Source of the DNA: Frigoribacterium sp. PhB24
Lineage (GTDB): Bacteria > Actinomycetota > Actinomycetes > Actinomycetales > Microbacteriaceae
Length of the DNA: 64,000 nt
Reading direction: 5' to 3'
Assembly: GCF_003755185.1 (NCBI RefSeq)
Contig: NZ_RKIC01000014.1
Span: 1-64,000, forward strand
A model generated the notes under the pieces. That model ran no database searches and was not told the DNA's origin. It saw only the letters and a list, made by a program, of their open reading frames with translations. The translations under genes and the position numbers were made by a program. Below, piece after piece: positions 11,330-33,069 of this stretch (the first letter of the stretch is position 1; each line of letters opens with the position of its first letter).

Positions 11330-11348
11330 TTCAGCTCCTTTGCTCAGG

Positions 11349-11361
11349 CTAGGCAGACTAC
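11349..11361 (-). promoter_or_regulatory. operator-like half-palindrome in the SDR promoter
   Basis: Read on the minus strand this is GTAGTCTGCCTAG, a degenerate form of the GTAGT-N3-ACTAC palindrome found elsewhere in the island. It includes a TAGTCT -10-like hexamer. The overlapping ACTACATGAAC (11357-11367) is an exact inverted copy of GTTCATGTAGT at 11427-11437, so both divergent promoters carry the same 11-mer. Confidence 0.5.
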
Positions 11362-11432
11362 ATGAACAGCTTCGTGCGGACGCACCCACGCGCACCGGAG
11401 GCCCCCGAATCCCCCATCTTGGTATCGTTCAT

Positions 11433-11445
11433 GTAGTATCGCTAC
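11433..11445 (+). promoter_or_regulatory. operator-like palindrome in the cupin-isomerase promoter
   Basis: GTAGTATCGCTAC is the GTAGT-N3-ACTAC palindrome with one mismatch, and the flanks extend it to TGTAG-N5-CTACA. It overlaps a TAGTAT -10-like hexamer at 11434-11439, so a bound regulator would block transcription of the downstream catabolic operon. The RpiR-family protein encoded at 14660 is the likely ligand-sensing regulator. Confidence 0.5.
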
Positions 11446-11470
11446 ACAAATTGCTCGAGGAGGATCGGTT

Positions 11471-14629: not shown

Positions 14630-14659
14630 CCGCGACCGTCGGCACCGGCTGAGGCTCAC

Positions 14660-15523: not shown

Positions 15524-15556
15524 CGACGGGCCGGCCCCGCAGGGCCGACCCGTCGT
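15523..15556. terminator. strong bidirectional hairpin terminator
   Basis: A 15-base stem with one mismatch (15523-15537 with 15542-15556) and a CGCA loop lies immediately at the end of the RpiR gene and 20 bases beyond the stop of the convergent sugar-binding protein gene. Confidence 0.7.
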
Positions 15557-15575
15557 CCGTGCCACGAGAACGGGG

Positions 15576-16574: not shown

Positions 16575-16612
16575 GTCTTCGTTGACCTTTCTGCTGTGTG
16601 ATGCGAGGGGGA

Positions 16613-17608
16613 TCAGGTGGGCCCGACGCCCGTCCGCTTCGTGGCGAAGCGGAACGTGGTGAGGATCACGGCGAGCAGGATGAGCCCGCCGCGGAAGGCG
16701 TCCTGCAAGAACGTCGAGACGTTGAGGAGGACGAGCAGGTTCGTGATGACGCCGAAGATCAGCGTGCCCACGACCGCGCCGAACACCCGGCCCTTGCCGC
16801 CTGCGAGGGCGGCGCCGCCGATGACGACCGCGGCGATCGAGTCGAGCTCGTACAGGTTGCCTGCCGTCGGCGTGCCGGCACCCACGCGCGAGGCGAGGAG
16901 GAACCCGGCGAAGCCGACGAGGACGCCGGCGAGGGCGTAGACCGCGACCAGGGTGGTCCGCACCGGCACGCCCGAGGCGTGGGCCGCCTCCTTGCTGCTG
17001 CCGAGCGCGTAGATGCGACGCCCGAAGACGGTGCTGCGGGTGACGAACGCGAGGACGACGGCGAGGCCCAACCAGATGAGGCCGATGACGGGGAACCCGA
17101 GGACGGTCGACGTGGCGATCGCGCGGAAGTCGGCCGCCTCGGGGCGGACGGGGCTGCCCTCCGTGAAGGCGTAGACGAGACCGCGGGCCAGGGCGAGCAT
17201 GCCGAGGGTGACGATGAACGGCTCGAGCCCGCGGAACGCGACGAGGTAGCCGTTGACGGTGCCGATGAGCGCGCCGACGCACACGGCGACGAGGATCGCG
17301 ACGCCGACGCTCGTGCCACCGAAGAGCCCTGCGGCGAGGACGCCCGACAGGCCGACCACCGACCCGACGCTGATGTCGATGCCCCCGGTGATGACGATGA
17401 TGAACTGCGCGAGGGTCACGATGCCGATGACCGAGGTCTGCAGGACCAGGTTCGTGAGGTTGCGTGTGGTGAAGAAGGCGTCGGTGCTGAGGCCCGCGAC
17501 GACGAGGAGGACGACGAGGATGTAGAGCGGGTACTGCTCCTTGGCCCATCGGCCGACGACGGCCCAGTCGATGCCGCGCCGGGTGGACGCCGTGGTCAGG
17601 TCGGTCAT
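16613..17608 (-). CDS. Rbs-type sugar ABC transporter permease
   Basis: The 331-residue product has eight to ten membrane helices and RbsC family blocks: NLVLQTSVIGIVTLAQFIIVITGGIDISVGSVVGL, VNGYLVAFRGLEPFIVTLGMLALARGL, and the EAA-like cytoplasmic turn AAHASGVPVRTTLVAVYALAG. It forms the membrane channel of a CUT2 (ribose-type) importer. Its ATG overlaps the stop of the ATPase gene (17605-17608). Confidence 0.9.
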   Translation of the reverse strand: MTDLTTASTRRGIDWAVVGRWAKEQYPLYILVVLLVVAGLSTDAFFTTRNLTNLVLQTSVIGIVTLAQFIIVITGGIDISVGSVVGLSGVLAAGLFGGTSVGVAILVAVCVGALIGTVNGYLVAFRGLEPFIVTLGMLALARGLVYAFTEGSPVRPEAADFRAIATSTVLGFPVIGLIWLGLAVVLAFVTRSTVFGRRIYALGSSKEAAHASGVPVRTTLVAVYALAGVLVGFAGFLLASRVGAGTPTAGNLYELDSIAAVVIGGAALAGGKGRVFGAVVGTLIFGVITNLLVLLNVSTFLQDAFRGGLILLAVILTTFRFATKRTGVGPT

Positions 17609-19146
17609 GCGGTGTCTCCTCCGAGGGAAGCGCGGATCAGGTCGTCCGTGGTGCTGGTGGCGGGGTGGAACTCGTCGACGAGGCGTCCGTCGCGCATGAT
17701 GAGGACGCGATTGCAGAGCATCAGAGCCTCTTCCGCTTCGCTGGTGACGACGACGACGCCTGTGCCCTGGGAGGCCAGCCGGCGGACGATCTCGTAGATG
17801 TTCGACCGGGCGCCGACGTCGATGCCCTTGGTCGGCTCGTCGAGGATCATGACCTCGGGCGAGGCCTCCAGCCACTTGGCGATGATGACCTTCTGCTGGT
17901 TGCCGCCCGACAGCGTGCGCGTGAGGGTGTCGCCGCCGCCCTTGACCTGGAACTCGCGGATGAGCTCGGCGACGCGCGTGCGCTCGGCCCGTCGGCGCAA
18001 CACGCCACGGTACGAGACTCGACCGAGGGTCGAGAGGGTCATGTTCTCGCCGTTGGTGAAGTGGGGCACGAAACCCTCGCGTCGCCTGTCCTCGGTCAGG
18101 TAGGCGACGCCGAGCCTCAGGGCGGCCCGCGGACTGGTCGGACGCACGTCGCGGCCGTGCAGCCGCACCGTGCCCGAGTGCCGGGGCTGGTGGCCCGAGA
18201 TCGACCGGACCACCGACGACCGGCCGCTGCCGACCAGGCCGTAGATACCGACCACCTCGCCCGGTGCGACCCGGAAACTCACACCCTCGGCCGAGCCGGC
18301 GGCCAGGTCGACGACGTCGAGCACCGGGACGGCCGTCTCGTCGACCTGCACGGTGAGCGGTTCGAGCGCGGCGACCGCCTCGCCGATCATGAGGTCGATG
18401 ACGGCCCCCGGAGTGGTCTCGACGGTGCGCAGCACGTCCACCAGCACGCCGTTGCGCATGACCGCGATGCGGTCCGCCATGGCGAAGACCTCGTCCATGC
18501 GGTGCGACACGAAGACGACGCAGACCCCCGAGGCGCGTTCCCGGTCGACGAGGTCGAGGACGTCTCGGAAGTGCTCCTCCGTGGTGGAGGCGGTGGTCTC
18601 GTCGAGCAGCAGGACGCTGTGCTCGTTCACCTGGGTGCGGCTGAGGGCGAGCATCTGCCGCGGGCCGGGGCCGAGCTCGCGGGCCGGCGTCTCGGGAGCG
18701 AGCTCGTTCAGCCCGACCGCGTCGAGGGCGGAGCGTGTGCGTCCGGTGCGGTCCTTCCGGACGACGTCCCACGGTCGCACACCGCCGGCCGAACTGATTC
18801 GTCGTAGCCAGACGTTCTCCTCGACCGTGAAGTCGTCGATGACCAAGGGTTCTTGATGCATCATGAGGACGCCGGCCGCCTCGGCGTCCGCAGGCCCCGT
18901 GATGTCGCCCTCGTGGCCGGCGATCTCGACGGTGCCGCTCGAGGGCAGTTCCTGCCCGGCGATCATGCGGGCCATCGTCGACTTGCCGGCGCCGTTGGCC
19001 CCGCAGATCGCGAGGACCTCGCCGGGGAACGCCTCGAGGTCGACGCCGGAGAGCGCTGTGACACCGGGGTAGGTCTTGCTGATGCCGCGGAGCGCGAAGG
19101 CAGGCCGCCTGGCCTCGGTGTGCGTTCGGGTCGTCATGTGTGGCAC
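17605..19146 (-). CDS. Rbs-type sugar ABC transporter ATP-binding protein (double ATPase)
   Basis: Two fused ABC ATPase domains are present, as in RbsA/MglA. The first has Walker A GANGAGKS and Walker B VLLLDETTA, with a degenerate signature (LGPGPRQML). The second has the usual degenerate P-loop (GLVGSGRS), an intact signature LSGGNQQK and Walker B VMILDEPTKGID. It powers import by the neighbouring permease. I prefer the GTG at 19146, five bases after AAAGGAG, to the ATG at 19137. It is the first gene of the operon and lies beneath two operator-like palindromes. Confidence 0.85.
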   Translation of the reverse strand: MPHMTTRTHTEARRPAFALRGISKTYPGVTALSGVDLEAFPGEVLAICGANGAGKSTMARMIAGQELPSSGTVEIAGHEGDITGPADAEAAGVLMMHQEPLVIDDFTVEENVWLRRISSAGGVRPWDVVRKDRTGRTRSALDAVGLNELAPETPARELGPGPRQMLALSRTQVNEHSVLLLDETTASTTEEHFRDVLDLVDRERASGVCVVFVSHRMDEVFAMADRIAVMRNGVLVDVLRTVETTPGAVIDLMIGEAVAALEPLTVQVDETAVPVLDVVDLAAGSAEGVSFRVAPGEVVGIYGLVGSGRSSVVRSISGHQPRHSGTVRLHGRDVRPTSPRAALRLGVAYLTEDRRREGFVPHFTNGENMTLSTLGRVSYRGVLRRRAERTRVAELIREFQVKGGGDTLTRTLSGGNQQKVIIAKWLEASPEVMILDEPTKGIDVGARSNIYEIVRRLASQGTGVVVVTSEAEEALMLCNRVLIMRDGRLVDEFHPATSTTDDLIRASLGGDTA

Positions 19147-19165
19147 CCTCGCTCCTTTGCGGGAT

Positions 19166-19178
19166 GTAGTGGGACTAC
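19166..19178 (-). promoter_or_regulatory. operator palindrome at the ABC operon promoter (proximal)
   Basis: GTAGTGGGACTAC is a perfect palindrome with a 3-base centre. It lies just downstream of a possible minus-strand promoter (TTGCGA at 19211-19206, TAGGCT at 19187-19182, 18-base spacing), where a repressor would block initiation. Confidence 0.6.
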
Positions 19179-19248
19179 CGAAGCCTAGGTCACAATGGCG
19201 AACAATCGCAACGCAAAGGGTCGAGCAAGGCAAATGAAGCGCTCTTGC

Positions 19249-19261
19249 GTAGTTCCACTAC
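19249..19261 (-). promoter_or_regulatory. operator palindrome at the ABC operon promoter (distal)
   Basis: GTAGTTCCACTAC is a second perfect copy of the same palindrome with a different centre, 83 bases from the first and upstream of the possible -35 element. The paired arrangement suggests co-operative binding or looping by one regulator, most likely the RpiR protein at 14660. Confidence 0.6.
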
Positions 19262-19316
19262 CGAGGGGGCCTGTTCGGTGATCGGCCGCAGCCGCCGAGG
19301 ACGACGACCTCGCCGC

Positions 19317-20234
19317 TCACGATCCGCCCAGTCCTGACGAGGCGAGCCCGTCGATGAAACGACGTTGCAAGACGAGGAAGAGGATCAACATCGGCGCGAT
19401 CATGATGATGCCTGCCGCGCTGATGAGAGCGAAGTTCTGCGTGAAGCCCTGTTGAAAGGTGAAGAACGTCGTCGAGACGGGCAGGAGCGACCCGGTCTGG
19501 ATGAACGTGATGGCGAACAGGAATTCGTTGTAGGCGGACAGTGCTGTCACGAGCGCGATCGTGAGCATGCCGGGCAGCGCGTTCGGCAGGACGACCTTGA
19601 ACAGGACCCCGAGTTCGCTGGCACCGTCCATCCGTGCGGCCTCCTCGAACTCTTTCGGCATGGTGAGCATGAACGAGCGGAGCAGCAGGGTCGCGAACGG
19701 AGAGAACAGACCGACGTAGATGAGGATGAGCCCGACACGTGTGTCATAGAGGTTGAGGTCCGCCCAGAGATAGAACAACGGCACCAAGAACATCTGCGTC
19801 GGTAGTGAGCTCGTGACCAACAGGTACGTGACGAAGGTCGTCCCGCCGCGGATCTCGAGGCGAGCCAAGGCATAGGCGGCGCTGCTCGCGACGACGACCG
19901 TGACGGCGACGGTGCCGAGGACGACGATGGCGGAGTTGACCAGACCGGCTCCCATCGCCGCTTCGGTCCAGGCGGAGGTGAAATTGCCCCACTCCCAGAC
20001 CCGCGGGACACCGAGTGGGTTCGAGGCGAATTCCCCCTGTGACTTCACGGCGTTGAAGAAGAAGAAGAGAATCGGCCCCAGCGCGAAGATCGACAACGCG
20101 GTGAGGAGCACGTAGGTGAGCCAGCCGGCACGACGGAACGACCCACCCTGCCGCCGCCGCCCACCAGGGGCGACCGATCCGCGTTCGACCCGATGGAGGG
20201 AATCGGCCAGGGGAAGCTTTGTCGAGATGCTCAT
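19317..20234 (-). CDS. CUT1 sugar ABC transporter permease, MalG type
   Basis: The 305-residue product has a cytoplasmic basic N-terminus and six membrane helices, with the EAA loop EEAARMDGASELGVLFKVVLPNALPG that docks to the ATPase. It pairs with the MalF-type gene whose stop it overlaps by ATGA. No ATPase gene lies in the operon, so it must share a housekeeping MsiK/MalK-like ATPase encoded elsewhere. Substrate unknown; operon context (a LacI regulator and an ADP-ribosylglycohydrolase-family enzyme) suggests a glycoside or ribosyl compound. Confidence 0.9.
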   Translation of the reverse strand: MSISTKLPLADSLHRVERGSVAPGGRRRQGGSFRRAGWLTYVLLTALSIFALGPILFFFFNAVKSQGEFASNPLGVPRVWEWGNFTSAWTEAAMGAGLVNSAIVVLGTVAVTVVVASSAAYALARLEIRGGTTFVTYLLVTSSLPTQMFLVPLFYLWADLNLYDTRVGLILIYVGLFSPFATLLLRSFMLTMPKEFEEAARMDGASELGVLFKVVLPNALPGMLTIALVTALSAYNEFLFAITFIQTGSLLPVSTTFFTFQQGFTQNFALISAAGIIMIAPMLILFLVLQRRFIDGLASSGLGGS

Positions 20235-21166
20235 ATTTCCCAGTTCCTCACCTTGCGGATGATCAGGTAGGCCGCGACGACGACACCACTGATGAGTGCC
20301 ATGACGACGCCGATGGCCGAGGCGTAACCGGCTTGCAGATTGCCGAACGCGTTGCGGTACAGAAGGGTCGACAAGACGTCCGTGGAGCCGGCAGGACCGC
20401 CTTGGGTAAGGATGTAGACGTAGTCGAAGGACAAGAACGACCAGATGATCGTCATGAGTCCGAGGAAGGCGAAGGTCGGCCGGATGCCCGGCAGGGTGAT
20501 GGAGAAGAACTGGCGCGTCGGTCCGGCCCCGTCCATCGCGGCTGCCTCGTAGAGCGACGGGTTGATGCCCTGCATGGCGGCGAGGAAGACCACGACGAGG
20601 AAACCCCACCAGGCCCAGTTGTTGATGAACGCCACGGACGGCAGGGCGAGGGCACTGTCACCGAGGAAATTCACGGCGACGAATCGGCCGATCCCCGTGT
20701 CGGGCGAGAGGAGGCTCCGCCAGATGGATGCCGTCACGACGCTGGCGACGATGTAGGGCACGAAGAACGTGACACGGAAGATCAATTTGAACCTTCGCAC
20801 CCGGGTGAGCGCGTACGCCCCGAACAATCCCATCGTCATCGGGACGATCAGGAAGAACGCCGTCCAGAAGATGTTGTGCCCCAGGGCGTTGAGGAAGGCG
20901 GAGTCGCCGAACAACGTGCTGTAGTTCGACCAGCCGATGAAGGTGGCGTCTCCGATTCCCGTCCAGTCGGTGAAGGAGTAGCCGACCGCGGAGAGGCTCG
21001 GGATGAGCACGACGAGCACGTTCACGGCGAGCAGCGGAAGCATGAACAACCAGCCACTGACGCGACGATCGCGAAGGCGCGATCGCCACGACCGCCTCCT
21101 GGTCATCGCCCGGGCCGCCGGCCGGGGTGGGGTCCGAACCGGAGGAGCGAGGACGGGGGCGGTCAC
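20231..21166 (-). CDS. CUT1 sugar ABC transporter permease, MalF type
   Basis: The 311-residue product has a basic N-terminus (TRRRSWRSRLRDRR) and six predicted helices, with the EAA loop YEAAAMDGAGPTRQFFSITLPGIRP. The GTG at 21166 is chosen because it overlaps the stop of the binding-protein gene (GTGA); the open frame further upstream is antisense shadow. It forms a heterodimeric channel with the MalG-type protein encoded next. Confidence 0.85.
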   Translation of the reverse strand: MTAPVLAPPVRTPPRPAARAMTRRRSWRSRLRDRRVSGWLFMLPLLAVNVLVVLIPSLSAVGYSFTDWTGIGDATFIGWSNYSTLFGDSAFLNALGHNIFWTAFFLIVPMTMGLFGAYALTRVRRFKLIFRVTFFVPYIVASVVTASIWRSLLSPDTGIGRFVAVNFLGDSALALPSVAFINNWAWWGFLVVVFLAAMQGINPSLYEAAAMDGAGPTRQFFSITLPGIRPTFAFLGLMTIIWSFLSFDYVYILTQGGPAGSTDVLSTLLYRNAFGNLQAGYASAIGVVMALISGVVVAAYLIIRKVRNWEI

Positions 21167-22512
21167 GAGACCAGCTCCGAGGGCTTGGGCGCCACGGGCA
21201 CGCTTCCCGCCGCGAGCTCGCCCGCGAAGATGTCCTGCATCCCGGAGGCGAACTCGGCCGCGGTCATCGACCCCGTCAGCACTTTCTCGTACTCGTTGAT
21301 CATGTAGGTCTCCGTCTTCTGCGGGAAGAACGTCCACGTCGTGTACCCGATGGTCGTCGCGACCGGCAATTCGGTGTAGAGACGCACCATCCGTGGATCG
21401 GCGCTGGCGGTGAAGTCGGCGCGGGTCAGCCCGATGGGTGGGGGCTGGAAGCTCATCGCCTCCATGCTGGCCGTGATGGTCTTCACGTCGGTGGTCAGAA
21501 AGTTCAAGAATTCGACCGCCGCGGGAACGTTGCCCGACTGCGTGTTCACCCCGGTCGACTGGCCGATGCCGAGATCCCAGATGGTCGAGCCGACCCCGTC
21601 TCTGAGTGACGGGACGTTCTGGTAGTCCCAGTCGCCGGAGTTTCCCGACCCCTCTCCGAAGTACGGAGCGAGATTCGAGAACTCCCAGGTGCCCGAGATC
21701 ATGCTCGCCGCCTCACCGCTGGCGAGCTGCTGGTACATCTTCGGGAACTGGTTCGTGAAGTACGACTTGACGCCACCGCCGTACCAGCCTCTGCCGAAGT
21801 CGTCGGCGAGCCGCTGGAACGCGTCGACGAAGACCGGGTCCGTCCACTTCGTCTCACCCTGAAGTGCTCGGTACACCGCCTCAGGGCCTGCGTCATGGTT
21901 CAGGGCGATGGTGAGGTACCACTCGTTGGCACCCTTGTAGTCCGCGTTGCCCGCGGCGATCGGGACCAACCCCTTGGCCTTGGCCTCGGTGCAGAAATCG
22001 ACGAACCCGGCACGGTCGATCGGGACCGTGAGACCGTGCTGCGCCACGACCTCGGGCTTGAAGTAGAGGACCATCGACTCGTACGACGTCGGAAGCGTCA
22101 CGAGGCTGTCGCCGACCCGAGACGCGTCGAGCGCCCAGGAGCTGAATTTCTGGTCCCAGCCGTACTGCTCGACGTAGTCGTCGAGGTGTGCGATGTAGCC
22201 CGCTCCGTCGTACGCCGCGACGCCCGACGGCCCGGGCGTGACCACGAGGGCCGGGCCCTTGCCTGCCGCGAGCGCCACCTGGGTCAGCTGGTCGATCGTG
22301 GCACTCGACTTCACGGTGAGGGTCACCGGCACCGACCCGCGGTAATCGTCGATGAAGTGCTTCCTGAAGTAGTTCCGCTGGTCGAGGTCCTGGAAGTAGT
22401 ACCAATAGTCCAGCGATGCGGCGGCGCGACCCGGTGCCGCGCACGAGCTGAGGGCACCGAGCAGGGCGAGCGCGCCCCCACCGACGATGACTTCCCGTCG
22501 TGACAACTGCAT
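21163..22512 (-). CDS. extracellular sugar-binding lipoprotein (ABC family 1)
   Basis: The 449-residue product begins with SRREVIVGGG, a twin-arginine-like motif, a hydrophobic core and the lipobox LSSC (Cys24), so it is probably an exported lipoprotein, perhaps folded before Tat export. The mature part is a family 1 extracellular solute-binding protein (DYWYYFQDLDQRNYF, aromatic-rich ligand cleft, and a C-terminal helix MTAAEFASGMQDIF). It delivers substrate to the two permeases encoded immediately downstream. Confidence 0.85.
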   Translation of the reverse strand: MQLSRREVIVGGGALALLGALSSCAAPGRAAASLDYWYYFQDLDQRNYFRKHFIDDYRGSVPVTLTVKSSATIDQLTQVALAAGKGPALVVTPGPSGVAAYDGAGYIAHLDDYVEQYGWDQKFSSWALDASRVGDSLVTLPTSYESMVLYFKPEVVAQHGLTVPIDRAGFVDFCTEAKAKGLVPIAAGNADYKGANEWYLTIALNHDAGPEAVYRALQGETKWTDPVFVDAFQRLADDFGRGWYGGGVKSYFTNQFPKMYQQLASGEAASMISGTWEFSNLAPYFGEGSGNSGDWDYQNVPSLRDGVGSTIWDLGIGQSTGVNTQSGNVPAAVEFLNFLTTDVKTITASMEAMSFQPPPIGLTRADFTASADPRMVRLYTELPVATTIGYTTWTFFPQKTETYMINEYEKVLTGSMTAAEFASGMQDIFAGELAAGSVPVAPKPSELVS

Positions 22513-22580
22513 GTCGATCTCCTTCGATCAATTGATGGCTGTGGGGCGTCGGCTCATCGCCGTGCCGACTCTCGGTCGCG

Positions 22581-23966
22581 CTAACTCAGCCCGTTCGCCG
22601 CGAGCCGGTGGGTGCGTTCTGCGAGATCCGAGATGACGGAGTGGTCGTACCCGAAGAGGGCCGATCGCGTGCGGTCGTGGAGAGGTTCGACGAGGCGCGC
22701 GGGCAGGCCCGCGGTGCCGTGGAGGATGCCCGCGACGCTGCCGACCGTCGCTCCGTTGGAGTCGGTGTCCCAGCCGCCCATCACGGTCAGCGACAGGGAC
22801 TTCATGTAGTCGCCTTCGCCCCACAGGAGGCCGGCGACGATCAGCGCGGCGTTGTTGATCGTGTGGACCCAGGAGTAGTGCCCGTAGTGCTCGCGGATCG
22901 AGACGACGGCTTCGTCCCACGACGCTCCCTCGTCGAACAGCCGGACGACGTGGGTGATCGCCTCCGCGAGCCTCGAGGCGGGCGGGACGACGAGTGTCGC
23001 CGTGTCGATCGCCTCCCGGGCGTCCGCCGCCACGAAGGCCGAAGCGACCAGCGCGGCAGCCCACATCTCGCCGTAGATTCCGTTGCCGACATGCGACAGC
23101 GATGCGTCCTGGTAGGACTGCTCGGCGGCCGTCGCGGGGTCGCCCGGGTTCACGTAACCGAAGACGTCCCCGCGGATCAACGCGCCGATCCATTCGCGGT
23201 AAGGATTCCGATGCGTGGCCGTCTCCGGTGGCTCGACACCGTTCACCAGGTTGATGTAGGCCGCGCGTTCGGCCGTGAAGACCTGCACGATCGGGAAGAG
23301 TTCGAGCCACGCGTCGCCGACGTGTCGCGGATGGAGCTGCGTCCCGTGCTGCTCGAGGAGGTGCAGGGCGAGGATCGGGTAGTCGATGTCGTCGTCGCGG
23401 GCGGACCCGTCGACGAGCCCGCGCAGGGTGTCGGTCCAGTTGTCGCGCAGTTCGAACCCTTCGGGGGTCGGATCGATGACCGGGAAGTAGTCGTCGAGGG
23501 GGTAGGCGTCCGCGAGCTCGAGGTAGTCCCGGATGCGCTCGACGGTCCAGTGGGACCCCATCTCGACCGGCTTGCCGACGTTGCAACCAGCGATCCGCCC
23601 GAGCCACGCGGCGTGGAGCTGATCGTGGAGACGCGCGTCGTCCACGGGTACCCGGACCGGTCTCGAGGCCCATGTCGCCGTGATCGCCTCGAGGGCGTCG
23701 GGCTCGTGATGGGACCAGTCGTCGCGGCGCGTCGCGGTCGCCATCTCGTCGACGAGCGACAGGACGGCCTCGCGGTCGTCAGGGTCGATCGTCGCGGCGC
23801 GGGCGACGACGTCGTCGACGTCGTACCCGGACTCGCGGCGCTGCAGGATCTCGTCGAAGAGCAGGTCCTTCGCCTCGAGAGGGTCGAACGTCGTGTGGCG
23901 GAACGCCGCCGGAACGTCCGACGAGTGATCGGTCGACGGGACGGGGACTCTGCGGGTGTCAGGCAC
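22581..23966 (-). CDS. ADP-ribosylglycohydrolase-family protein
   Basis: The 461-residue product contains the metal-binding features of the ARH fold: an Asp-rich RDDDIDYPILALHLLE block near the middle (about residue 185) and the C-terminal GGWDTDSNGATVGSVAGILHG, which matches the family's GxDTDxxxAxxGxxxG signature. Known members remove ADP-ribose from proteins or dinitrogenase reductase, and others hydrolyse small glycosides. It lacks a signal peptide. GTG 23966 follows AAGGAG by six bases. Its place between a LacI gene and a sugar importer argues for hydrolysis of an imported N- or O-glycoside rather than signalling. Confidence 0.8.
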   Translation of the reverse strand: MPDTRRVPVPSTDHSSDVPAAFRHTTFDPLEAKDLLFDEILQRRESGYDVDDVVARAATIDPDDREAVLSLVDEMATATRRDDWSHHEPDALEAITATWASRPVRVPVDDARLHDQLHAAWLGRIAGCNVGKPVEMGSHWTVERIRDYLELADAYPLDDYFPVIDPTPEGFELRDNWTDTLRGLVDGSARDDDIDYPILALHLLEQHGTQLHPRHVGDAWLELFPIVQVFTAERAAYINLVNGVEPPETATHRNPYREWIGALIRGDVFGYVNPGDPATAAEQSYQDASLSHVGNGIYGEMWAAALVASAFVAADAREAIDTATLVVPPASRLAEAITHVVRLFDEGASWDEAVVSIREHYGHYSWVHTINNAALIVAGLLWGEGDYMKSLSLTVMGGWDTDSNGATVGSVAGILHGTAGLPARLVEPLHDRTRSALFGYDHSVISDLAERTHRLAANGLS

Positions 23967-24063
23967 GGGTTTCTCCTTCGATGGGGTGGTGGAGGGCAGG
24001 GCGGAGCGGAGCAGGCCTTCTGTGGGCCCGGCGGTCAGTCTTCGACGGTCACATCTCGGCGGT

Positions 24064-25050
24064 CTAGGCGGACTCTCGGACGACGAGCCTGGTGGGGAGC
24101 GCCAGCGACTCATAGGGCGAGGTTCCCCCGAGCATGCGGCCCAGGAGCGCGTGCGCCGCAGCGGAGCCGACGGCCGCCGCGAAGTTGTCGACCGTCGTGA
24201 GACGCGGGGTGACGAGGTCGGCCGTCTCGATGTTGTCGAACCCGACGACGGCGATGTCGTCGGGTATGCGCAGGCCACGAGCATGGATGACGTCCATCGC
24301 ACCGATGGCGATCAGATCGTTCGCACAGAGAACGGCCTGCGGAGGGGGGCCGACCTCGAGCATCCACGTCATGGCGCTGACGCCACCCGCACGCGTGAAC
24401 TCGGTCGAGGCCGTCCGGTTCGCTCCGATCTCGAGACCGGACCGCTTCGACGCCACCTCGAACGCCGCGAGCCGAGCCGAGCCGGCACCGTTGAGGAACG
24501 CGAGGTCCGTGCGCCCGGTGGAGCGAAGATGATCCACGGCTTCATGGATGCCCAGGGCGTCATCAGTCGACACCTGGTCGAACAGATGCTCACCACGACC
24601 ATCCCCGAGGACCACCAAGGGAGTCTCGTCGCCGACGATGTGACGGATCTCCTCCGGTCCGAGGGACATGGCCTGCACGATGACGCCGTCGACGCTTCGT
24701 GCCACGACCTCGTGCAAGTACGTCCTCTCTCGGTCCGCCGACCCGTCCGTGTTGAGGATGAAGGCGATGTAGCCGTCGACGGCCAGGACGTCGCCGACCG
24801 ACCTGGCGAGTTCGGGGTAGTAGGGGTTCGAGATGTCCGCGACGAGCAGACCGACCGTGTGGGTCCGCTGGCTGCGGAACCCCTTGGCGAGGAGGTTCGG
24901 TCGGTACCCGAGGCGATCCACCGCCTCGTGGATGCGAACCTTCGTCTCGGCTGAGACCGAACGCTTGCCGCTGAGGGCGTGCGAAACGGTCGTCGGACTC
25001 ACGCCCGCCTCTGCGGCGACCTGAGAGATGTTGGCGCCCATCCTCTTCAT
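24064..25050 (-). CDS. LacI family transcriptional regulator
   Basis: The 328-residue product has the N-terminal HTH and hinge (ISQVAAEAGVSPTTVSHALSGKRSVSAETKVRIHEAVDRLGYRPN) and a periplasmic-binding-like effector domain (VGLLVADISNPYYPELARSV, AVLCANDLIAIGAMDVIHARGLRIPDDIAVVGFDNIE). It is transcribed ahead of the glycohydrolase and importer genes and probably represses them. A perfect CAAATCGATTTG palindrome lies 47 bases upstream of its start codon. Confidence 0.9.
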   Translation of the reverse strand: MKRMGANISQVAAEAGVSPTTVSHALSGKRSVSAETKVRIHEAVDRLGYRPNLLAKGFRSQRTHTVGLLVADISNPYYPELARSVGDVLAVDGYIAFILNTDGSADRERTYLHEVVARSVDGVIVQAMSLGPEEIRHIVGDETPLVVLGDGRGEHLFDQVSTDDALGIHEAVDHLRSTGRTDLAFLNGAGSARLAAFEVASKRSGLEIGANRTASTEFTRAGGVSAMTWMLEVGPPPQAVLCANDLIAIGAMDVIHARGLRIPDDIAVVGFDNIETADLVTPRLTTVDNFAAAVGSAAAHALLGRMLGGTSPYESLALPTRLVVRESA

Positions 25051-25096
25051 GGCGTTCGGCCCCCTGTCTCGATCGGCGGTGAGAGAAAGATCGATA

Positions 25097-25108
25097 CAAA
25101 TCGATTTG
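25097..25108 (-). promoter_or_regulatory. LacI-type operator palindrome
   Basis: CAAATCGATTTG is a perfect 12-base palindrome with the central CG typical of LacI-family operators. It lies upstream of the LacI gene at 24064 and would allow autoregulation and control of the downstream importer operon. Confidence 0.6.
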
Positions 25109-25283
25109 CATGATCCGATTCATCAACACTGCGAGAGGGCGCTGTGCCTGTCAAGAAGCAAACGGTACTGATGACCGTTTGCACGAGGACGTGCGGCTGC
25201 TCTGACGATCAGGGGTTTCTCGTGCCACCAGCCGCGCCAGCGCCGCCGGGCCGCTGGGGGGTCATAGCCCCGGAGGGTGCACG

Positions 25284-25312
25284 AAAAAGGCGGCCCACGT
25301 CGTGGACCGCCT
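25284..25312 (-). terminator. rho-independent terminator of the former tRNA-Arg gene
   Basis: On the minus strand AGGCGG-N-CCAC pairs with GTGG-N-CCGCCT and is followed by TTTTT. It begins ten bases past the tRNA 3' end at 25322, as expected for a native tRNA transcript. Confidence 0.75.
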
Positions 25313-25321
25313 CGTTGTCTG

Positions 25322-25368
25322 TGCGCCTGGAGGGACTCGAACCCCCAACCTTCTGATCCGTGGTCAGA
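25322..25368 (-). pseudogene. 3' half of tRNA-Arg (ACG), truncated; possible attachment site
   Basis: On the minus strand the anticodon stem-loop (TCTGA-CCACGGA-TCAGA, anticodon ACG), variable loop, T arm (GGGGG-TTCGAGT-CCCTC) and the 3' acceptor strand CAGGCGC-A are all present. The matching 5' acceptor GCGCCTG and D arm are missing; the preceding sequence instead forms an unrelated TCGCC/GGCGA hairpin. Position 33 is C rather than the near-universal U. The native terminator follows. This is what remains of a tRNA after an element integrated in its 3' half, or after a deletion. Confidence 0.7.
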
Positions 25369-25581
25369 CCGTCGCCGAGCCCTTGGCGAGGCCGGGTCGT
25401 CGACAAACACGGGGGACGGACAACGTGCAGTTCACCGGCTTCTGCGATCGAGAACCATCGAGATGCATCTGAGTGGGGCCGTTTAGGGCGACCAAAAAGG
25501 CGAGCAAGGCCATCTGCCCGAAGGTCGGCGTGGTCTCGACCGTGTTGAGCAGTGACCGGATTGGTGATGTCCGTGCCCCGA

Positions 25582-25875
25582 TCACGGCGCCCCTGAGCCA
25601 CCGCGAGGTGCACGAGCGTGGATGGCCAAGAGCACGTTCGGGGACAGTTCCAACTCGTAGAGCAGGCGAGTCACGACGAAGACGCTCGGATGAGCCGTTT
25701 CGCCTCTTTCAATGCGGCGCAGTGTGGCCACACCGATGCCGACCAGAGAAGACAGGTCCTCTTGGCGCATTCCCGATGCCGACCTTGCCAGACGTATCTG
25801 GCGGCCGAGAAGCACGGCTTCTTGGTGCCCCGACCTGCCCGCTCCCGCGTCGACCGAGCCGTGGCTGTTGGACAT
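25582..25875 (-). CDS. small XRE-family HTH regulator
   Basis: The 97-residue product carries a Cro/CI-type HTH (LGRQIRLARSASGMRQEDLSSLVGIGVATLRRIERGETAHPSVFVVTRLLYEL) covering residues about 24-77, with short flanks. The start at 25875 lies nine bases after the stop of the lactate-oxidising enzyme gene on the same strand, so it could be cotranscribed with the rhamnose operon, but its codon use is less GC-biased and it borders the tRNA remnant, so it may belong to a mobile element. Target unknown. Confidence 0.7.
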   Translation of the reverse strand: MSNSHGSVDAGAGRSGHQEAVLLGRQIRLARSASGMRQEDLSSLVGIGVATLRRIERGETAHPSVFVVTRLLYELELSPNVLLAIHARAPRGGSGAP

Positions 25876-25883
25876 GTCAGGGC

Positions 25884-27119
25884 TCAGCGGGACCGCGGGA
25901 TGAGCCGCTCGAGCTGGGTCACGTGCCGCGGCTCGAGTTCCTCGAGCGAGTTGACGCCGAGCAGGCGCATCGTGCGGGCGATCTCGACCGAGAGGATCTC
26001 GATCGCGCGGTCGACGCCCTCGCGCCCGCCGGCCATGAGCCCGTAGAGGTACGCGCGGCCGACGAGCGTGAAGCGGGCGCCGAGGGCGATGGCGGCGACG
26101 ATGTCGGCACCCGACATGATGCCCGTGTCGAGGTGCACCTCGGTGTCGGCCCCGACCTCCCTCACGACGTCGGGCAGCAGGTGGAACGGGATCGGCGCGC
26201 GGTCGAGCTGACGCCCGCCGTGGTTCGACAGAATCAACGCGTCGACGCCCAGGTCGGTGACCCGGCGGGCGTCCTCGACGGTCTGCACGCCCTTGACGAC
26301 GAGCTTCCCGGGCCACTGCAACTTGATCCACGCCAGGTCGTCGTAGGTGACGGTCGGGTCGAACATCGTGTTCAGCAGCTCGGCGACGGTGCCCGACCAG
26401 CGGTCGAGCGACGCGAACGCGAGCGGCTCAGTGGTGAGGAAGTCGATCCACCACCAGGGCCGGGGCAGCGCGTCGACGATGGTCTTGGGCGTCAGCGACG
26501 GCGGGATCGTCATGCCGTTGCGTGAGTCGCGGAGGCGCGCACCGGCCACCGGCACGTCCACCGTCACCAGCAGGGTGTCGAACCCCGCCGCGGCCGCCCG
26601 GTCGACGAGGGCCATCGACCGGTCGCGGTCCTTCCACATGTAGAGCTGGAACCAGTTCCGACCGTCGGGCGCCGCCTCCGCGACGTCCTCGACGCTCGCC
26701 GTGCCCATCGTCGAGAGGCTGAACGGGATGCCCGCCGCCGCGGCCGCCGCGGCGCCCGCCTTCTCGCCGTCGGTCTGCATCATCCGGGTAAAGCCCGTCG
26801 GGGCGATCCCGAACGGCTGCTCTACCCGCGCACCCAGCACGTCCCACCCGGTGTCGACGGTTGCGACGTCGTGCAGGATCTCCGGGTTGAACTGCACGTC
26901 GCGGAACGCCTGCCGAGCCCGCCGCAGCGAGATCTCCGCCTCGGCCGAGCCGTCGGTGTAGTCGAAGGCCGCCGTGGGGGTGCGGCGCTTGGCGATCCGC
27001 CGCAGGTCCTCGATGGTCAGCGCCTCGCGCAGGCGCTTGGCCTTGAGGTCGAACGTGGGCTTCTTGAACTGCATGAGCGGCGCGAGGTCGTGGAACTTCG
27101 GCAGGCGGCGGTCGACCAT
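25884..27119 (-). CDS. lldD: FMN-dependent L-lactate dehydrogenase / alpha-hydroxyacid oxidase
   Basis: The 411-residue product belongs to the alpha-hydroxyacid dehydrogenase family: [48 protein letters not shown] (catalytic-site Tyr), [15 protein letters not shown] (FMN Lys), [12 protein letters not shown] with the catalytic His, and DTGIMSG/GRAYLYG for FMN phosphate. It oxidises L-lactate to pyruvate at the membrane or in the cytoplasm. As the gene after rhaB, it probably finishes conversion of rhamnose-derived lactaldehyde and lactate to pyruvate. Confidence 0.85.
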
Positions 27120-27156
27120 GGGGACGGTCCTTCCGGGTCGGTGGGGAGGGAGGAGA

Positions 27157-28704
27157 TCAGGAGGCGCGGGCGGCGGCTGAGGACGCTCCCGACCGCGGGC
27201 GGTACGTCACGGGGGCGGACGACGCGGCCACGAGCGCCCGGAGCGACTCGAGCGAGGACGCGCGTTCGACGAGCCCGGCAGCACGGGCCTGGACGAGCAC
27301 GTTGCCGAGCGCCGTCGCCTCGACCGGCCCCGCCAGCACGGTGCAGCCGGTGCGGTCGGCGGTCAGCTGGCAGAGCAGCTCGTTCTGCGAGCCGCCCCCG
27401 ACGACGTGCACGGTGCGGACCGTGCGGCCGGAGAGCCGCTCGGCGTCGCGGAGGGTCGCGGCGTAGGCCGCGGCGAGCGACTCGAGGATGCTCCGCACCG
27501 TCTCGGCCCGCCCGCGCGGCGGCGCGACGTCGTGCTCGACGCACCACGCCTCGATGCGCGCCGGCATGTCGCCGGGCGGCGTGAAGCGGGCGTCCGTGGC
27601 GTCGAAGACGGCGACGGGCCGGGTCACGGCCGCCGCCTCGGCGAGCAGGGCCGCGAGGTCGCTGCTGCGCTCGGCGGCCGAGGTGCCCGAGCGGCTCCAC
27701 GCACGAATCGACTCGCTCAGCAGCCACAGGCCCGACACGTTCTTGAGGAACCGCACCCGCCCGTCGACGCCGCCCTCGTTCGTGAAGCCGGCCGCTCGGA
27801 CGTCCTCGCCGAGCAGCGGCGACGGCAGCTCGAGGCCGACGAGCGACCACGTGCCGCTCGACACGTAGGCAGCGTCGTCGCCCGTGAGCGGCACGGCGAC
27901 CACGGCCGAGGCGGTGTCGTGCGAGCCGACCGCCGTGACCCCGAGCGACGCCGGGGCACCGATCGCCGCGGCGACCGACGGCAGCAGCGGACCGAGGGAG
28001 GTGCCCGGGTCGACGAGCGGCGCGAACAGGTCGGGCGACAGGCCGAGTCGACGCATCAGCTCGACGTCCCACTCCCCCGTCGCCGGCGACAGCAGACCCG
28101 TCGTCGAGGCGTTGGTGCGCTCGGTCGCGGCCGTGCCGGTGAGCCACCACGAGACGAGGTCGGGCACGAGCAGGGCACGATCGGCCGGGGCGAGGACGCC
28201 CGACGCGTGGTCGGCGGCGAGCTGGAACACCGTGTTGAACGGCAGGTGCTGCAGGCCGGTGCGCGCGAAGAGCTCATCGGGCGGCACGACGGCGTGCACC
28301 GTCTCGACCCCCGCTGCCGAGCGCTCGTCGCGGTAGTGGTACGGAGAGCCGAGGAGGCGGCCCTCACGCAGCAGCCCGTAGTCGACCGCCCAGGAGTCGA
28401 CGCCGATCGAGGCCACGCCCGGCTCGTCACGGAGAGCCTCGGCCAGCCCCGCGACGACCGACCGCCAGAGCCCCAGGACGTCCCAGTGCAGGCCGACGCA
28501 GCCCGCGCCTCCTGGGCTCTCGACGGCGCCCTCGCCGTCGCCCCGCCCCTCGGGCAGCGTGACCGGGTCGTTCGCGAACCGGGCGACGTGCTGCAGGCGC
28601 ACTCCGTCGGGGTCGACGTGGCCGAGCACGACGCGCCCGCTCGTCGCGCCGAGGTCTACCGCGGCGACGACGCCGCCCGTCGCGTTCGGCCCGGTGCCCG
28701 TCAT
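27157..28704 (-). CDS. rhaB: rhamnulokinase
   Basis: The 515-residue FGGY kinase has [15 protein letters not shown] at the N-terminus (RhaB-type, ATSGR rather than GTTxxK), [36 protein letters not shown] with the catalytic Asp, [13 protein letters not shown] and [15 protein letters not shown]. These are the rhamnulokinase motifs. It phosphorylates L-rhamnulose to L-rhamnulose 1-phosphate with ATP in the cytoplasm. The start overlaps the aldolase/dehydrogenase stop by ATGA, so the two are coupled. Confidence 0.92.
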
Positions 28705-30740
28705 CGCAGGAAGGCCGCGGCGACCCCCGCGTCGACCGGCACGTGCAGCCCGGTCGTGTGCGAGAAGTCGCTCGTGCAGATCGCGTAGACGGCGGCGGCG
28801 ACGTTCTCGGGCACGACCTCGCGCTTGAGGATGGTGCGCTGAGCGTAGAAGGCGCCGAGGTCCTTCTCGTCGACGCCGTAGGTCGCCGCGCGGTTGGCGC
28901 CCCAGCCGCTGGCGAAGATGCCCGAGCCGCGCACGACGCCGTCGGGGTTGATGCCGTTGACGCGGATGCCGTGCTCGCCGAGCTCGGCCGCGAGCAGCCG
29001 CACCTGGTGCGCCTGGTCGGCCTTCGTCGCGCTGTAGGCGATGTTGTTCGGGCCGGCGAAGACCGAGTTCTTCGACGAGATGTAGACGATGTCGCCGCCG
29101 AGGCCCTGGTCGACCAGCACGCGGGCCGCGTTCTTCGCGACGAGGAACGAGCCCTTGGCCATCACGTCGTGCTGCAGGTCCCAGTCGGCCTCGGTGGTGT
29201 CGAACAACGACTTCGACAGGCTCAGCCCGGCGTTGTTGACGACGAGGTCGAGCCCTCCGAAGGCGAGCAGCACCTCGGCGATCGACGCCTTCACCGCAGC
29301 CTCGTCGCTGACGTCGGCGGCGACCCCTCGCGCCACGTCCGGCCCGCCGATCTCGGCTGCGGCCGCCTGCGCCTTCGCGAGGTCGAGGTCGGCGATGACG
29401 ACGCAGGCCCCCTCGGCGGCGAGCCGGGTGGCGATGGCCTTGCCGATGCCCGACGCAGCACCGGTCACGAGCGCGACGCGGGTGGCGAGCGGCTTCGGCG
29501 CGGGCCGCCGCTGCAGCTTCGCCTCCTCGAGGGCCCAGTACTCGATCCGGAACTTCTCGGCCTCGTCGATCGGCGCGTAGCTCGAGACGCCCTCGGCGCC
29601 GCGCATCACGTTGATCGCATTGACGTAGAACTCGCCCGCGACGCGCGCCGTCTGGGCGTCGCCCCCGTACGAGAACATGCCGACGCCCGGCACGAGCACG
29701 ATCAGCGGGTCGGCCCCGCGGATCGCCGGGCTGTCGGGCGTCGCGTGCCGGTCGTAGTACGCCTGGTAGTCGAGGCGGTACTGCTCGTGCAGCTCGCGGA
29801 GGCGCGCGATCGACTCCTCGACGGTCGCGTCGGCCGGCAGGTCGAGGACCAGCGGCCGCACCTTCGTGCGGAGGAAGTGGTCGGGGCAGCTCGTGCCGAG
29901 CGCCGCGAGCCGTGGGTGCTCGGTGCTGGCGAGGAAGTCGAGCACGACGTCGCTGTCGGTGAACGAGCCGACCTGCGGCCGGTCGTGCGACGCGATTCCG
30001 CGGATGACGGGTGCGAGGGCCGCGGCCTTGGCGCGGCGCTCGTCGAGGGGCAGGGCCGCGTGGCCGGCGAGGGCTGGGCCGAAGGGCTCGGGCCTCGAGT
30101 GCTCGTCGAGCCAGGCCTGCGCGGTCTCGATGATCCAGCGTGAGGCGGCCTCCGCCTCCTCACTGGTGTCGCCCCAGGCGGTGATGCCGTGCCCGCCCAG
30201 GATCGTGCCGCGCGCCTCCGGGTGCTCCGCCTTGATCGCGGCTATGTCGAGGCCGAGCTGCCAGCCCGGTCGGCGCCAGGGCACCCAGACGACCGCGCCG
30301 CCGAAGATCTCGGCCGTGAGTCGTTCTCCGTCGGCAGCGGTCGCGATCGCGATGCCTGCGTCGGGGTGCAGGTGGTCGACGTGCGCCGCGTCGACGAGGC
30401 CGTGCATGGCGGTGTCGATCGACGGCGCCGCGCCTCCCTTGCCGTGCAGGGCGTAGTCGAAGGCGGCGACCATCTCGTCCTCGTGCTCGACGCCGCGGTA
30501 GACGCCCGCGAGGCCGCGCAGTCGGTCGAGGCGCAGCACGGCGAGGCCCTGCTCGGTGAGGGTGCCGAGGTCTCCCCCGCTGCCCTTGACCCAGAGCAGC
30601 TCGACCGGCTCGCCCGTCGCCGGGTCGGTCGCGGTGCCCTTGGCCGAGGTGTTCCCGCCGGCGTAGTTCGTGTTCGCCGGGTCGGCGCCGAGGCGGTTGC
30701 TGCGCGCGACGAGGTCGGCGGCGGTGGTGGTGCTGGTCAC
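28701..30740 (-). CDS. rhaD: bifunctional rhamnulose-1-phosphate aldolase / lactaldehyde dehydrogenase
   Basis: The 679-residue product fuses a class II aldolase domain (residues about 1-400: NYAGGNTSAKG, VKGSGGDLGTL, HVDHLHPDAG with zinc-binding His, ILGGHGITAWG) to an SDR domain (about 425-679: VALVTGAASGIG, NNAGLS, ISSKNS, YSATKA). This fused type replaces separate RhaD and lactaldehyde-processing enzymes in actinobacteria and some bacilli: it cleaves rhamnulose 1-phosphate to dihydroxyacetone phosphate and L-lactaldehyde and oxidises the latter. Start is GTG 30740; the ribosome site is weak. Confidence 0.9.
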   Translation of the reverse strand: MTSTTTAADLVARSNRLGADPANTNYAGGNTSAKGTATDPATGEPVELLWVKGSGGDLGTLTEQGLAVLRLDRLRGLAGVYRGVEHEDEMVAAFDYALHGKGGAAPSIDTAMHGLVDAAHVDHLHPDAGIAIATAADGERLTAEIFGGAVVWVPWRRPGWQLGLDIAAIKAEHPEARGTILGGHGITAWGDTSEEAEAASRWIIETAQAWLDEHSRPEPFGPALAGHAALPLDERRAKAAALAPVIRGIASHDRPQVGSFTDSDVVLDFLASTEHPRLAALGTSCPDHFLRTKVRPLVLDLPADATVEESIARLRELHEQYRLDYQAYYDRHATPDSPAIRGADPLIVLVPGVGMFSYGGDAQTARVAGEFYVNAINVMRGAEGVSSYAPIDEAEKFRIEYWALEEAKLQRRPAPKPLATRVALVTGAASGIGKAIATRLAAEGACVVIADLDLAKAQAAAAEIGGPDVARGVAADVSDEAAVKASIAEVLLAFGGLDLVVNNAGLSLSKSLFDTTEADWDLQHDVMAKGSFLVAKNAARVLVDQGLGGDIVYISSKNSVFAGPNNIAYSATKADQAHQVRLLAAELGEHGIRVNGINPDGVVRGSGIFASGWGANRAATYGVDEKDLGAFYAQRTILKREVVPENVAAAVYAICTSDFSHTTGLHVPVDAGVAAAFLR

Positions 30741-30799
30741 GAGGGGGTTCCGTTCGAGGTCAGGGGCAGGTCGAGGAGGCGCGGGCCAGGAGGTGCAGA

Positions 30800-31963
30800 T
30801 CAGGTCCAGCTGAGCTGCTTGCCGCCGACGCGCTCCGCGGCGAGGCGCTCGGGGGTGCCGCTGGCGAGGTAGGCCGACATCGGGTCGCGGGGCAGGCCGC
30901 GCGACTCGCGCCAGTCGGCCAGGGCCGGCCGCACGTCGGTGTAGAAGGCGTCCATCAGCACGGCGTTCGCGCCGAGCACGTCGTGGGAGGCGCGGGCCGC
31001 GTCGAGCGCCGGACGGTCGACGAGCAGGGCGCGCGCCGTCATCTCCTGCACGTTCAGCACGCTGCGGATCTGGCCGGGGATCTTGTCCTCGACGTTGTGG
31101 CACTGGTCGAGCATGAACTGCACCGGCGAGCCCTCGTCGAGCCCGCCGCCGTCGACGACCTCGAACAGGATGCGGAACAGCTGGAACGGGTCGGCCGCCC
31201 CGACGATGAGGTCGTCGTCGGCGTAGAAGCGCGAGTTGAAGTCGAACGAGCCGAGCTTGCCGAGGCGCAGCAGCTGCATGACGATGAACTCGATGTTCGT
31301 GCCGGGGGCGTGGTGGCCGGTGTCGAGGCAGGTCAGCGCGCGGTCGCCGAGGGCGCTCACCTGCGCGTAGCTGGTGCCCCAGTCGGGCACGTCGGTGTGG
31401 TAGAACGCCGGCTCGAAGAACTTGTACTCGAGCACGAGGCGCTGCTCGTCGCCGAGGCCGGCGTAGATCTCGGCGAGCGACTCGGCGAGGTGGTCCTGAC
31501 GCTGGCGCAGCGAGTCCTGCCCCGGGTAGTTCGTGCCGTCCGCGAGCCAGATCTTGAGGTCGCGCGACCCGGTCTCGTGCATGATCTCGAGGCAGCGGAG
31601 GTGGTGGTCGACCGCCTTGCGGCGGACAGCGGCGTCGCTGTGCGCGAGGCTGCCGAACTTGTACGCGTCGTCCTGGAACGTGTTCGAGTTGACAGTCCCG
31701 AGCGCGACGCCGAGCCCCTCAGCGTACGAGCGGAGGGCGCCGAAGTCCTCGACCTCGTCCCACGGGATGTGCAGGGCCACGCTCGGCGCCAGGCCGGTGT
31801 GCTCGTGCACACGGGCCGCATCCGCGATCTTCTCCTCCGCCGTGCGCGGCGTGCCCGGCGTGCCGAACACCTTGAACCGCGTGCCGGAGTTGCCGAAGGC
31901 CCAGCTGGGCAGCTCGATGGCCTGGCGCTCGAGGGTCGGCGCGATGGATTCGAAGGTTGTCAT
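30800..31963 (-). CDS. rhaI: L-rhamnose isomerase (RhaI type)
   Basis: The 387-residue product is a TIM-barrel sugar isomerase of the RhaI type: LPSWAFGNSGTRFKVF, VALHIPWD, LKIWLADGTNYPGQDS, VLEYKFFEPAFYHTDVPDWGT, LDTGHHAPGTNIEFIV and FDFNSRFYADDDL supply the metal-binding Glu, Asp and His residues. It converts L-rhamnose to L-rhamnulose. GGAG stands six bases before the ATG at 31963. It is the first gene of the rhamnose operon and faces a LacI gene across a palindromic operator. Confidence 0.92.
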   Translation of the reverse strand: MTTFESIAPTLERQAIELPSWAFGNSGTRFKVFGTPGTPRTAEEKIADAARVHEHTGLAPSVALHIPWDEVEDFGALRSYAEGLGVALGTVNSNTFQDDAYKFGSLAHSDAAVRRKAVDHHLRCLEIMHETGSRDLKIWLADGTNYPGQDSLRQRQDHLAESLAEIYAGLGDEQRLVLEYKFFEPAFYHTDVPDWGTSYAQVSALGDRALTCLDTGHHAPGTNIEFIVMQLLRLGKLGSFDFNSRFYADDDLIVGAADPFQLFRILFEVVDGGGLDEGSPVQFMLDQCHNVEDKIPGQIRSVLNVQEMTARALLVDRPALDAARASHDVLGANAVLMDAFYTDVRPALADWRESRGLPRDPMSAYLASGTPERLAAERVGGKQLSWT

Positions 31964-31985
31964 GGTGGCTCCGGCTCGTTCGACG

Positions 31986-31999
31986 TTGAATCGTTTCAA
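31986..31999. promoter_or_regulatory. LacI-type operator between rhaI and its regulator
   Basis: TTGAATCGTTTCAA is a palindrome apart from its centre, with the TGAA-CG-TTCA character of LacI operators. It lies 23 bases upstream of rhaI and 66 bases upstream of the divergent LacI gene, so it can regulate both. Confidence 0.6.
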
Positions 32000-32064
32000 T
32001 CTGACGATAGGGTTCGATCTGTGCCGCCGTCAAATCCCAACCACCACGAGCTCACGAGTCGCTC

Positions 32065-33069
32065 TTGAAACGAACGAGCATCCGAGACGTGGCGGCGGCC
32101 GCCGGCGTCTCGGTCGGCACGGTGTCGAACGTCCTCAACAACCCGGACCGCGTCAGCCCAGCGACCGTGGCCCGGGTGGCCCGGTCCATCGACGAGCTCG
32201 GATTCCTGCGGAACGACGCCGCGCGGCAGCTCCGGGGTGGTGACAGCCGTGCCATCGGCCTCGTAGTCCTCGACGCCAGAAACCCCTTCTTCGCCGACGT
32301 GGCGCGGGGCGCGGAGGCCGCTGCGGAAGAGCTGGGTCAGGTCATCCTCGTCGGGAACAGCGATCAGCGGACGGACCGCGAAGCCCACTACCTCAACATC
32401 TTCGCCGAGCGGCGCGTCATGGGCGTCCTCGTGTCCCCGGTCGGCGACGTCACCGTGCCCCTCCGGCGACTCCGCGACCACGGCATCCCTGCCGTCCTCG
32501 TCGACAGGGAGGCGGCACCCGGAACACTGTCCTCCGTGTCGGTCGACGACGTCGCGGGCGGGAGGATGGCCGTGGAGCACCTGCTCTCCCTCGGTCGGCG
32601 ACGCATCGCTTTCGTCGGCGGACCGGGCGGCCTCCGACAGGTCTCTGACCGTCTGTCCGGAGCGCGGGCAGCAGTGGCGGCCACGCCCGACGCCGTCCTG
32701 CAGGTGCTCGACACGCCCGATCTCACGGTCGAGGCAGGGCGTTCTGCGGCCCACACCCTCGCGCATGGTGGTCCGGGAAAGCGCCCTGATGCCGTCTTCG
32801 CCGCCAACGACCTCGTGGCCGTCGGCGTGCTGCAGGGCCTCGTCATGCAGAGCGCCCTCCGCGTGCCGGAGGACGTCGCACTCATCGGCTACGACGACAT
32901 CGACTTCGCACGAGCCACCGTGGTGCCCCTGAGCTCCATACGCCAGCCCCGAGAACTCATGGGCCGCTCCGCCGTCGAGGTTCTGCGCGCGGACGCGGCC
33001 GACCCCCACCGTGAACATGAACGCGTCATCTTCACTCCGGAACTCGTGGTGCGTGCCAGCACAGGTTGA
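32065..33069 (+). CDS. LacI family regulator of the rhamnose operon
   Basis: The 334-residue product has a LacI HTH (SIRDVAAAAGVSVGTVSNVLNNPDRVSPATVARVARSIDELGFLRN) and effector domain (IGLVVLDARNPFFADVARGAE, VFAANDLVAVGVLQGLVMQSALRVPEDVALIGYDDIDFA). It starts with TTG at 32065; no strong ribosome site precedes it. Being divergent from rhaI with a shared palindrome, it most likely represses rhamnose catabolism in the absence of rhamnose or rhamnulose. Confidence 0.88.
   Translation: MKRTSIRDVAAAAGVSVGTVSNVLNNPDRVSPATVARVARSIDELGFLRNDAARQLRGGDSRAIGLVVLDARNPFFADVARGAEAAAEELGQVILVGNSDQRTDREAHYLNIFAERRVMGVLVSPVGDVTVPLRRLRDHGIPAVLVDREAAPGTLSSVSVDDVAGGRMAVEHLLSLGRRRIAFVGGPGGLRQVSDRLSGARAAVAATPDAVLQVLDTPDLTVEAGRSAAHTLAHGGPGKRPDAVFAANDLVAVGVLQGLVMQSALRVPEDVALIGYDDIDFARATVVPLSSIRQPRELMGRSAVEVLRADAADPHREHERVIFTPELVVRASTG

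Follow-up and report, generated by a model that had tools for sequence, protein, structure and literature searches.

The window, a stretch of 64,000 nucleotides that makes up positions 1–64,000 and thus the first part of contig C6 (255,972 bp), carries a tRNA fragment with sugar-use genes on both sides (Table 1). The fragment, hereafter the scar, corresponds to the 3′ 48 nt of the 74-nt tRNA-Arg(ACG). ARAGORN found no tRNA in the window, Rfam models at gathering thresholds gave no hit in it, and the 60 nt of the scar fold no better than shuffled sequence (z 1.11). A search of the genome's own sequence located an intact tRNA-Arg(ACG) further along contig C6, also on the minus strand. Apart from that copy, the best ungapped match to the scar 48-mer in 124 kb, both strands included, reaches only 28/48, so the resemblance lies far beyond chance, and chance similarity was rejected. 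A preliminary description of this locus had read the fragment as an intact 3′ half. At 48 of 74 nt it is rather more than half, but one base departs from the intact gene: an anticodon-loop base, which we take to be position 33 by standard tRNA numbering, is C in the scar and T in the intact copy. Behind the scar on the minus strand stands a strong terminator hairpin, followed by five U.

Table 1. Features of the window and of the island that extends beyond it. The prefix C6 marks positions given on the contig.
Feature	Position	Strand	Remarks
Left flank common to empty-site relatives	1-8108		Collinear, 88-94% with G005, G009, G010, G013 and G015, beside their tRNA-Arg(ACG) locus
Accessory sugar-gene block	8109-25244		Absent from empty sites; 11 of 16 predicted genes scanned
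Degenerate inverted copy of tRNA-Arg 3′ end, left of terminator	25245-25283	+	Found by eye; clearer in G003, G004 and G006
Terminator hairpin and U run after displaced tRNA 3′ part	25282-25313 (hairpin about 25287-25313)	-	Fold -22.1 kcal/mol, z -4.60
Perfect 44-bp repeat common to attR and attL	25318-25361 = C6:102591-102634	-	No mismatches
Displaced 3′ part of tRNA-Arg(ACG), attR core	25321-25368	-	47/48 nt identical to C6:102594-102641
Element end (att arm)	25369-25510	+	Motif at 25446-25467; 25245-25510 93% to G004
Rhamnose-operon block	25511-33044		Not in G004, where 25510 abuts 33045
Island cargo inside the window	33045-64000		Cargo runs on to about C6:91346, the island to C6:102641; 33045-68389 99% to G004
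Primase-like protein	C6:93200-96514		1104 aa
Tyrosine integrase	C6:98100-99335		411 aa; PF00589 at C6:98820-99281
GajA	C6:99579-101198		PDLC00098, 590.5 bits
GajB	C6:101188-102330		PDLC00140, 371.8 bits
Intact tRNA-Arg(ACG)	C6:102594-102667	-	Followed by GGCCCGG..CCGGGCC terminator

We compared the locus across 16 Frigoribacterium genomes, comprising the genome under study (G000) and 15 congeners, and searched a draw of 398 genomes of the family, 10 of them Frigoribacterium. Short repeats of tRNA-Arg ends occur in this genus. Beside its scar (L093 3540-3769), G004 has 105-bp tandem units (2.2 copies, 96%) each comprising a terminator plus an inverted tRNA-Arg(ACG) 3′ end; these lie between an older terminator and the scar, and single or degenerate units of this type adjoin the tRNA end in G003, G006 and G000. 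On contig C3 of G000, tRNA-Arg(CCT) (L003 1458-1530) is followed by 83-bp tandem units (L003 1522-1907; 3.4 copies, 98%), in each of which the tRNA end recurs. These units recall the rtT repeats after tyrT in E. coli.

The preliminary description had taken the fragment for the leftover of an element integrated in a tRNA gene, and had foreseen an intact tRNA-Arg(ACG) with a matching 3′ sequence and an integrase beyond position 64,000. Both are present, with the tRNAs matching at 47 of 48 positions and a tyrosine integrase gene (PF00589, 69.4 bits against a cut-off of 27.1) lying between scar and intact tRNA, 3.3 kb from the latter. Close relatives of this integrase were found only in Frigoribacterium sp. 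Leaf186 and sp. PhB160. At an E value of 1e-30, matches occur in 61 of the 398 family genomes, mostly at 30-39% identity. Outside the genus, G199 has the best match (39%), and a tRNA-Arg(ACG) stands 2.5 kb from it; among the 59 matched genomes this is the one non-genus neighborhood that was inspected.

Gene order in relatives, to which the preliminary description had pointed as a check, speaks for an insertion at this site, as both flanks meet at one intact tRNA. Three of the 15 congeners have a nearly empty site, in which the left flank ends 410 (G005), 183 (G009) or 77 bp (G010) from an intact tRNA and the right flank (C6:102,593 onward) continues after it. In G013 and G015 the two flanks are separated by 10.3 kb of other DNA, 9.9 kb of which resembles the island of G014 at 94.6%; no scar was seen there, and we count this DNA beside a scar-free tRNA against the island reading. 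The remaining 10 congeners, for which 4 to 60 kb of the left side was compared, are uninformative: G014 matches 5866-6304 at the edge of the compared stretch, and the other nine have no left-flank match. Six candidates were scored per genome in this comparison, and the contigs of G006 (11 kb) and G009 are short at the locus.

Scars of tRNA-Arg(ACG) are present in five of the 16 genomes, G000, G001 (two), G003, G004 and G014, each with 31 to 77 kb to the next tRNA copy; no relative combined a scar with the lack of an island among the scars found. C33 recurs in the scars of G000, G004 and G014 and in one of the two G001 scars, and is absent from the G003 scar and the other G001 scar. The intact tRNAs compared at the locus all keep T33, and this contrast places the strand exchange 3′ of base 33. 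Counting against the island reading, the two G001 scars and the G003 scar have no tyrosine integrase match on their contigs.

Just inside the scar, in the element arm, lies the motif CATCGAGAACCATCKAGATGCA. Allowing up to two mismatches, it occurs at seven places in six of the 16 genus genomes (a reversed control gave 0) and in four of the 398 family genomes, all four Frigoribacterium. Five of the seven places are tRNA-Arg(ACG) scars, namely the scar described here and four others in the genus; the G003 scar does not have the motif, which also counts against the island reading. The place in G015 (L178 225-1500), elsewhere in that genome, has a tRNA 3′ part flanked by an arm on either side, all in one piece; an integrase gene lies at a distance of about 0.1 kb, and ARAGORN found no tRNA in this 3-kb locus. 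This arrangement is the layout expected of an uncut attP, and we regard it as a candidate attP-like site. In G011 the copy is degenerate and stands at a different locus; 10 kb away is a protein that shares 94% identity with the primase-like protein of the island.

We consider it nearly certain that a genomic island of about 77 kb, inserted into the anticodon-loop region of tRNA-Arg(ACG) by a tyrosine integrase, has its far (attR) junction at the fragment. Seen directly are the repeat, the integrase gene between the two copies, the nearly empty sites, the island in a second species, the common end motif and the attP-like site. The incoming circle would have brought with it a copy of the tRNA 3′ part and, behind that, a terminator of its own. 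Exchange 3′ of base 33 would then have joined the chromosomal 5′ part to the 3′ part of the element, giving the tRNA that is now intact and backed by GGCCCGG..CCGGGCC, and the older 3′ part with its terminator would have been displaced by 77.3 kb to the position of the scar. We infer the exact crossover bases from the sequence. The integrase gene on the island presumably made the insertion, and the island may still be able to excise.

The terminator now behind the intact tRNA resembles that of G004 and is unlike those of the five scar-free genomes (G005, G009, G010, G013 and G015), so it most likely arrived with the element. The scar-free genomes share an empty-site type, CCCCTGCC..GGCAGGGG. 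The scar is followed by another type, GGCGGCCCACG..GTGGACCGCC, which also stands behind the intact tRNAs of G003 and G006 and in the scars of G001, G003 and G004. Since it differs from the empty-site type and occurs behind other intact tRNAs, the target probably carried it before the island arrived. The scar terminator had been described as native, which holds only in that it probably predates the island; it is not of the type found in the empty-site relatives. That difference had escaped the preliminary description, as had the accessory nature of the sugar genes on the lower-coordinate side.

These accessory genes (8.1-25.3 kb) include a phosphotriesterase-like gene, an FGGY kinase, a KDPG aldolase, an ABC-type binding protein and an ADP-ribosylglycohydrolase. 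Their absence from the empty-site relatives, together with the odd terminator and the two scars that stand in a row in G001, raises the idea that the scar 3′ part and its terminator already ended a second element within 8.1-25.3 kb, and that the island then inserted beside it, which would add to the main explanation. Against this, no integrase, end motif or further tRNA fragment was found in 1-25.3 kb (8.0-8.5 kb was also searched by eye), nor any scar belonging to the block itself, and in G006, whose contig spans 11 kb, an intact tRNA precedes the scar-type terminator and no scar was found. We judge such a tandem arrangement rather unlikely. That the fragment is a decayed tRNA copy or a duplicated tRNA end formed without integration, the sugar genes having arrived otherwise, is highly improbable: tRNA-Arg ends are indeed copied locally in this genus, as the 105-bp and 83-bp units illustrate, but integration is favored by the integrase between the copies, by the relatives with empty sites, by the occurrence of this island in G004 between the two corresponding sites and by an arm that is conserved on the element side only.

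From 25.9 kb to the end of the window the element carries sugar genes, on the higher-coordinate side where they had been anticipated. We worked with 56 island genes (55 from a simple gene caller, with GajB added separately), 38 of which were scanned whole against families and one in part. The block next to the arm, about 7.5 kb, encodes a rhamnose isomerase and a bifunctional aldolase/dehydrogenase, both exceeding curated cut-offs, a kinase-like protein that does not, and a LacI-type regulator. Stretches of the block match, at 93-94% identity, DNA to the left of the tRNA in G014 and G011. The block interrupts collinearity with G004, which we count against a simple island reading; either an insertion here or a deletion in G004 would account for the difference. 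Beyond it, the scanned genes encode alpha-L-rhamnosidases, GH1, GH2 and GH3 glycosidases, FGGY kinases, class II aldolases, GlpX and an SDR enzyme, along with a sugar-type binding protein, MFS transporters, LacI-type regulators, an MMPL protein and a histidine kinase. The rhamnosidases and the rhamnose operon suggest use of rhamnosides, perhaps plant-derived. Odd among the sugar genes is a flavin monooxygenase (window 42233-44056) related to neopentalenolactone D synthase, at 717.9 bits below the cut-off of 1100.

Near the tRNA, the integrase is accompanied by a primase-like protein, a weak sigma-factor-like protein and two adjacent genes, both matching whole profiles, for GajA and GajB. With GajA adjoining GajB, the pair is predicted to be a Gabija anti-phage system, here placed between integrase and attL. 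None of the stretches searched in relatives, the G004 island included, has a GajA counterpart. The primase-like protein matches PHROG 2478 weakly (E 1.1e-9, residues 56-210) and has no Pfam match. It occurs in seven of the 398 family genomes, including three of the 10 of this genus; the G011 copy lies at another locus within a module of which 7.1 kb is 92% identical. No match was found in phage records, none was confirmed in viral contigs searched for close relatives, and a profile of five sequences, one incomplete, retrieved nothing from solved structures. Two weak plasmid matches (30-32% identity over 14-15% of the length) include one annotated as a P4-family primase. The protein would presumably replicate an excised circle.

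By its sequence, we assign the island to the tRNA-targeted genomic islands of the Islander type, as a new example of an already known kind: an intact tRNA and a same-orientation 3′ fragment enclose an integrase gene, and relatives have the uninterrupted site. In its available text, the Islander catalogue (PMC4383910) covers islands that likewise combine an intact tRNA, a displaced 3′ fragment in the same orientation, a tyrosine integrase gene between the two and a crossover near the anticodon loop, and it includes an anticodon-centered crossover class, which an exchange 3′ of base 33 fits. Against the islands as that text presents them there is no difference in kind; the present case adds a genus hot spot with several cargoes, the primase-like protein and the Gabija pair. 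With actinobacterial ICEs the island shares the location of its integrase at a tRNA gene and a candidate replication protein. Unlike those elements, the island has no FtsK/SpoIIIE match (seven in the genome, none on C6), and PF03432, the one relaxase family searched and one that matched in one of 14 control genomes, had no match in the genome; on these grounds we consider a conjugative element (ICE/AICE) unlikely. No phage structural or packaging gene was found among the island genes scanned (38 of 56 whole and one in part, eight of them against PHROGs). The available part of the Frigoribacterium adelgis paper (PMC12823222) describes 10 islands predicted in other strains, of which one carries a tyrosine recombinase, and a literature search judged by titles and abstract openings, which is no proof of absence, found no published description of the island.

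The island recurs in G004, where 60,766 bp of its 77.3 kb lie between that genome's own scar and tRNA with a mean identity of 97.6% over all pieces that reach 200 bp and 80% identity. The right flanks of the two genomes are about 77% identical. The cargo at 33045-68389 and 73863-91346 is 99% identical, and the integrase module at 91970-99328 is 89% identical. A second type of cargo, 29.7 kb at 93.9%, is common to the 37-kb island of G014 and one of the two G001 islands, whose flanks are again at 77%. Cargo far more alike than the flanks around it, in both pairs, indicates that cargoes move between species at the tRNA-Arg(ACG) site. With the module at 89% and the cargo at 99%, the island did not simply move as one piece between the two species, which we again count against the island reading; on these identities the greater divergence of the module is not explained by whole-island transfer. 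A small near-identical gene pair (window 38901-39410 and C6:68549-69058) has its second member at the margin of the 5.5 kb (68.4-73.9 kb) that the G004 island does not have. The GlpX and class II aldolase genes (C6:64896-66942) have counterparts in G011 with 96% DNA identity, located about 8-9 kb from the primase-like module of that genome, a hint that cargo may be picked up beside such modules.

These results give the exact ends, the integrase and the nearly empty sites for a large sugar-use island of Frigoribacterium, with the same cargo in two species, and illustrate that a tRNA fragment in raw sequence can correctly foretell an intact tRNA and an integrase about 77 kb away. They also offer one locus at which to study the spread of sugar use between related bacteria. 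It is possible, if somewhat doubtful, that Frigoribacterium possesses a tRNA-Arg(ACG) island family of its own, in which large sugar-use cargoes (about 53 kb here) cross species almost unchanged, the integrase module staying diverged. If so, cargo would be swapped between resident islands of different species that have no transfer genes of their own, rather than carried by movement of whole islands.
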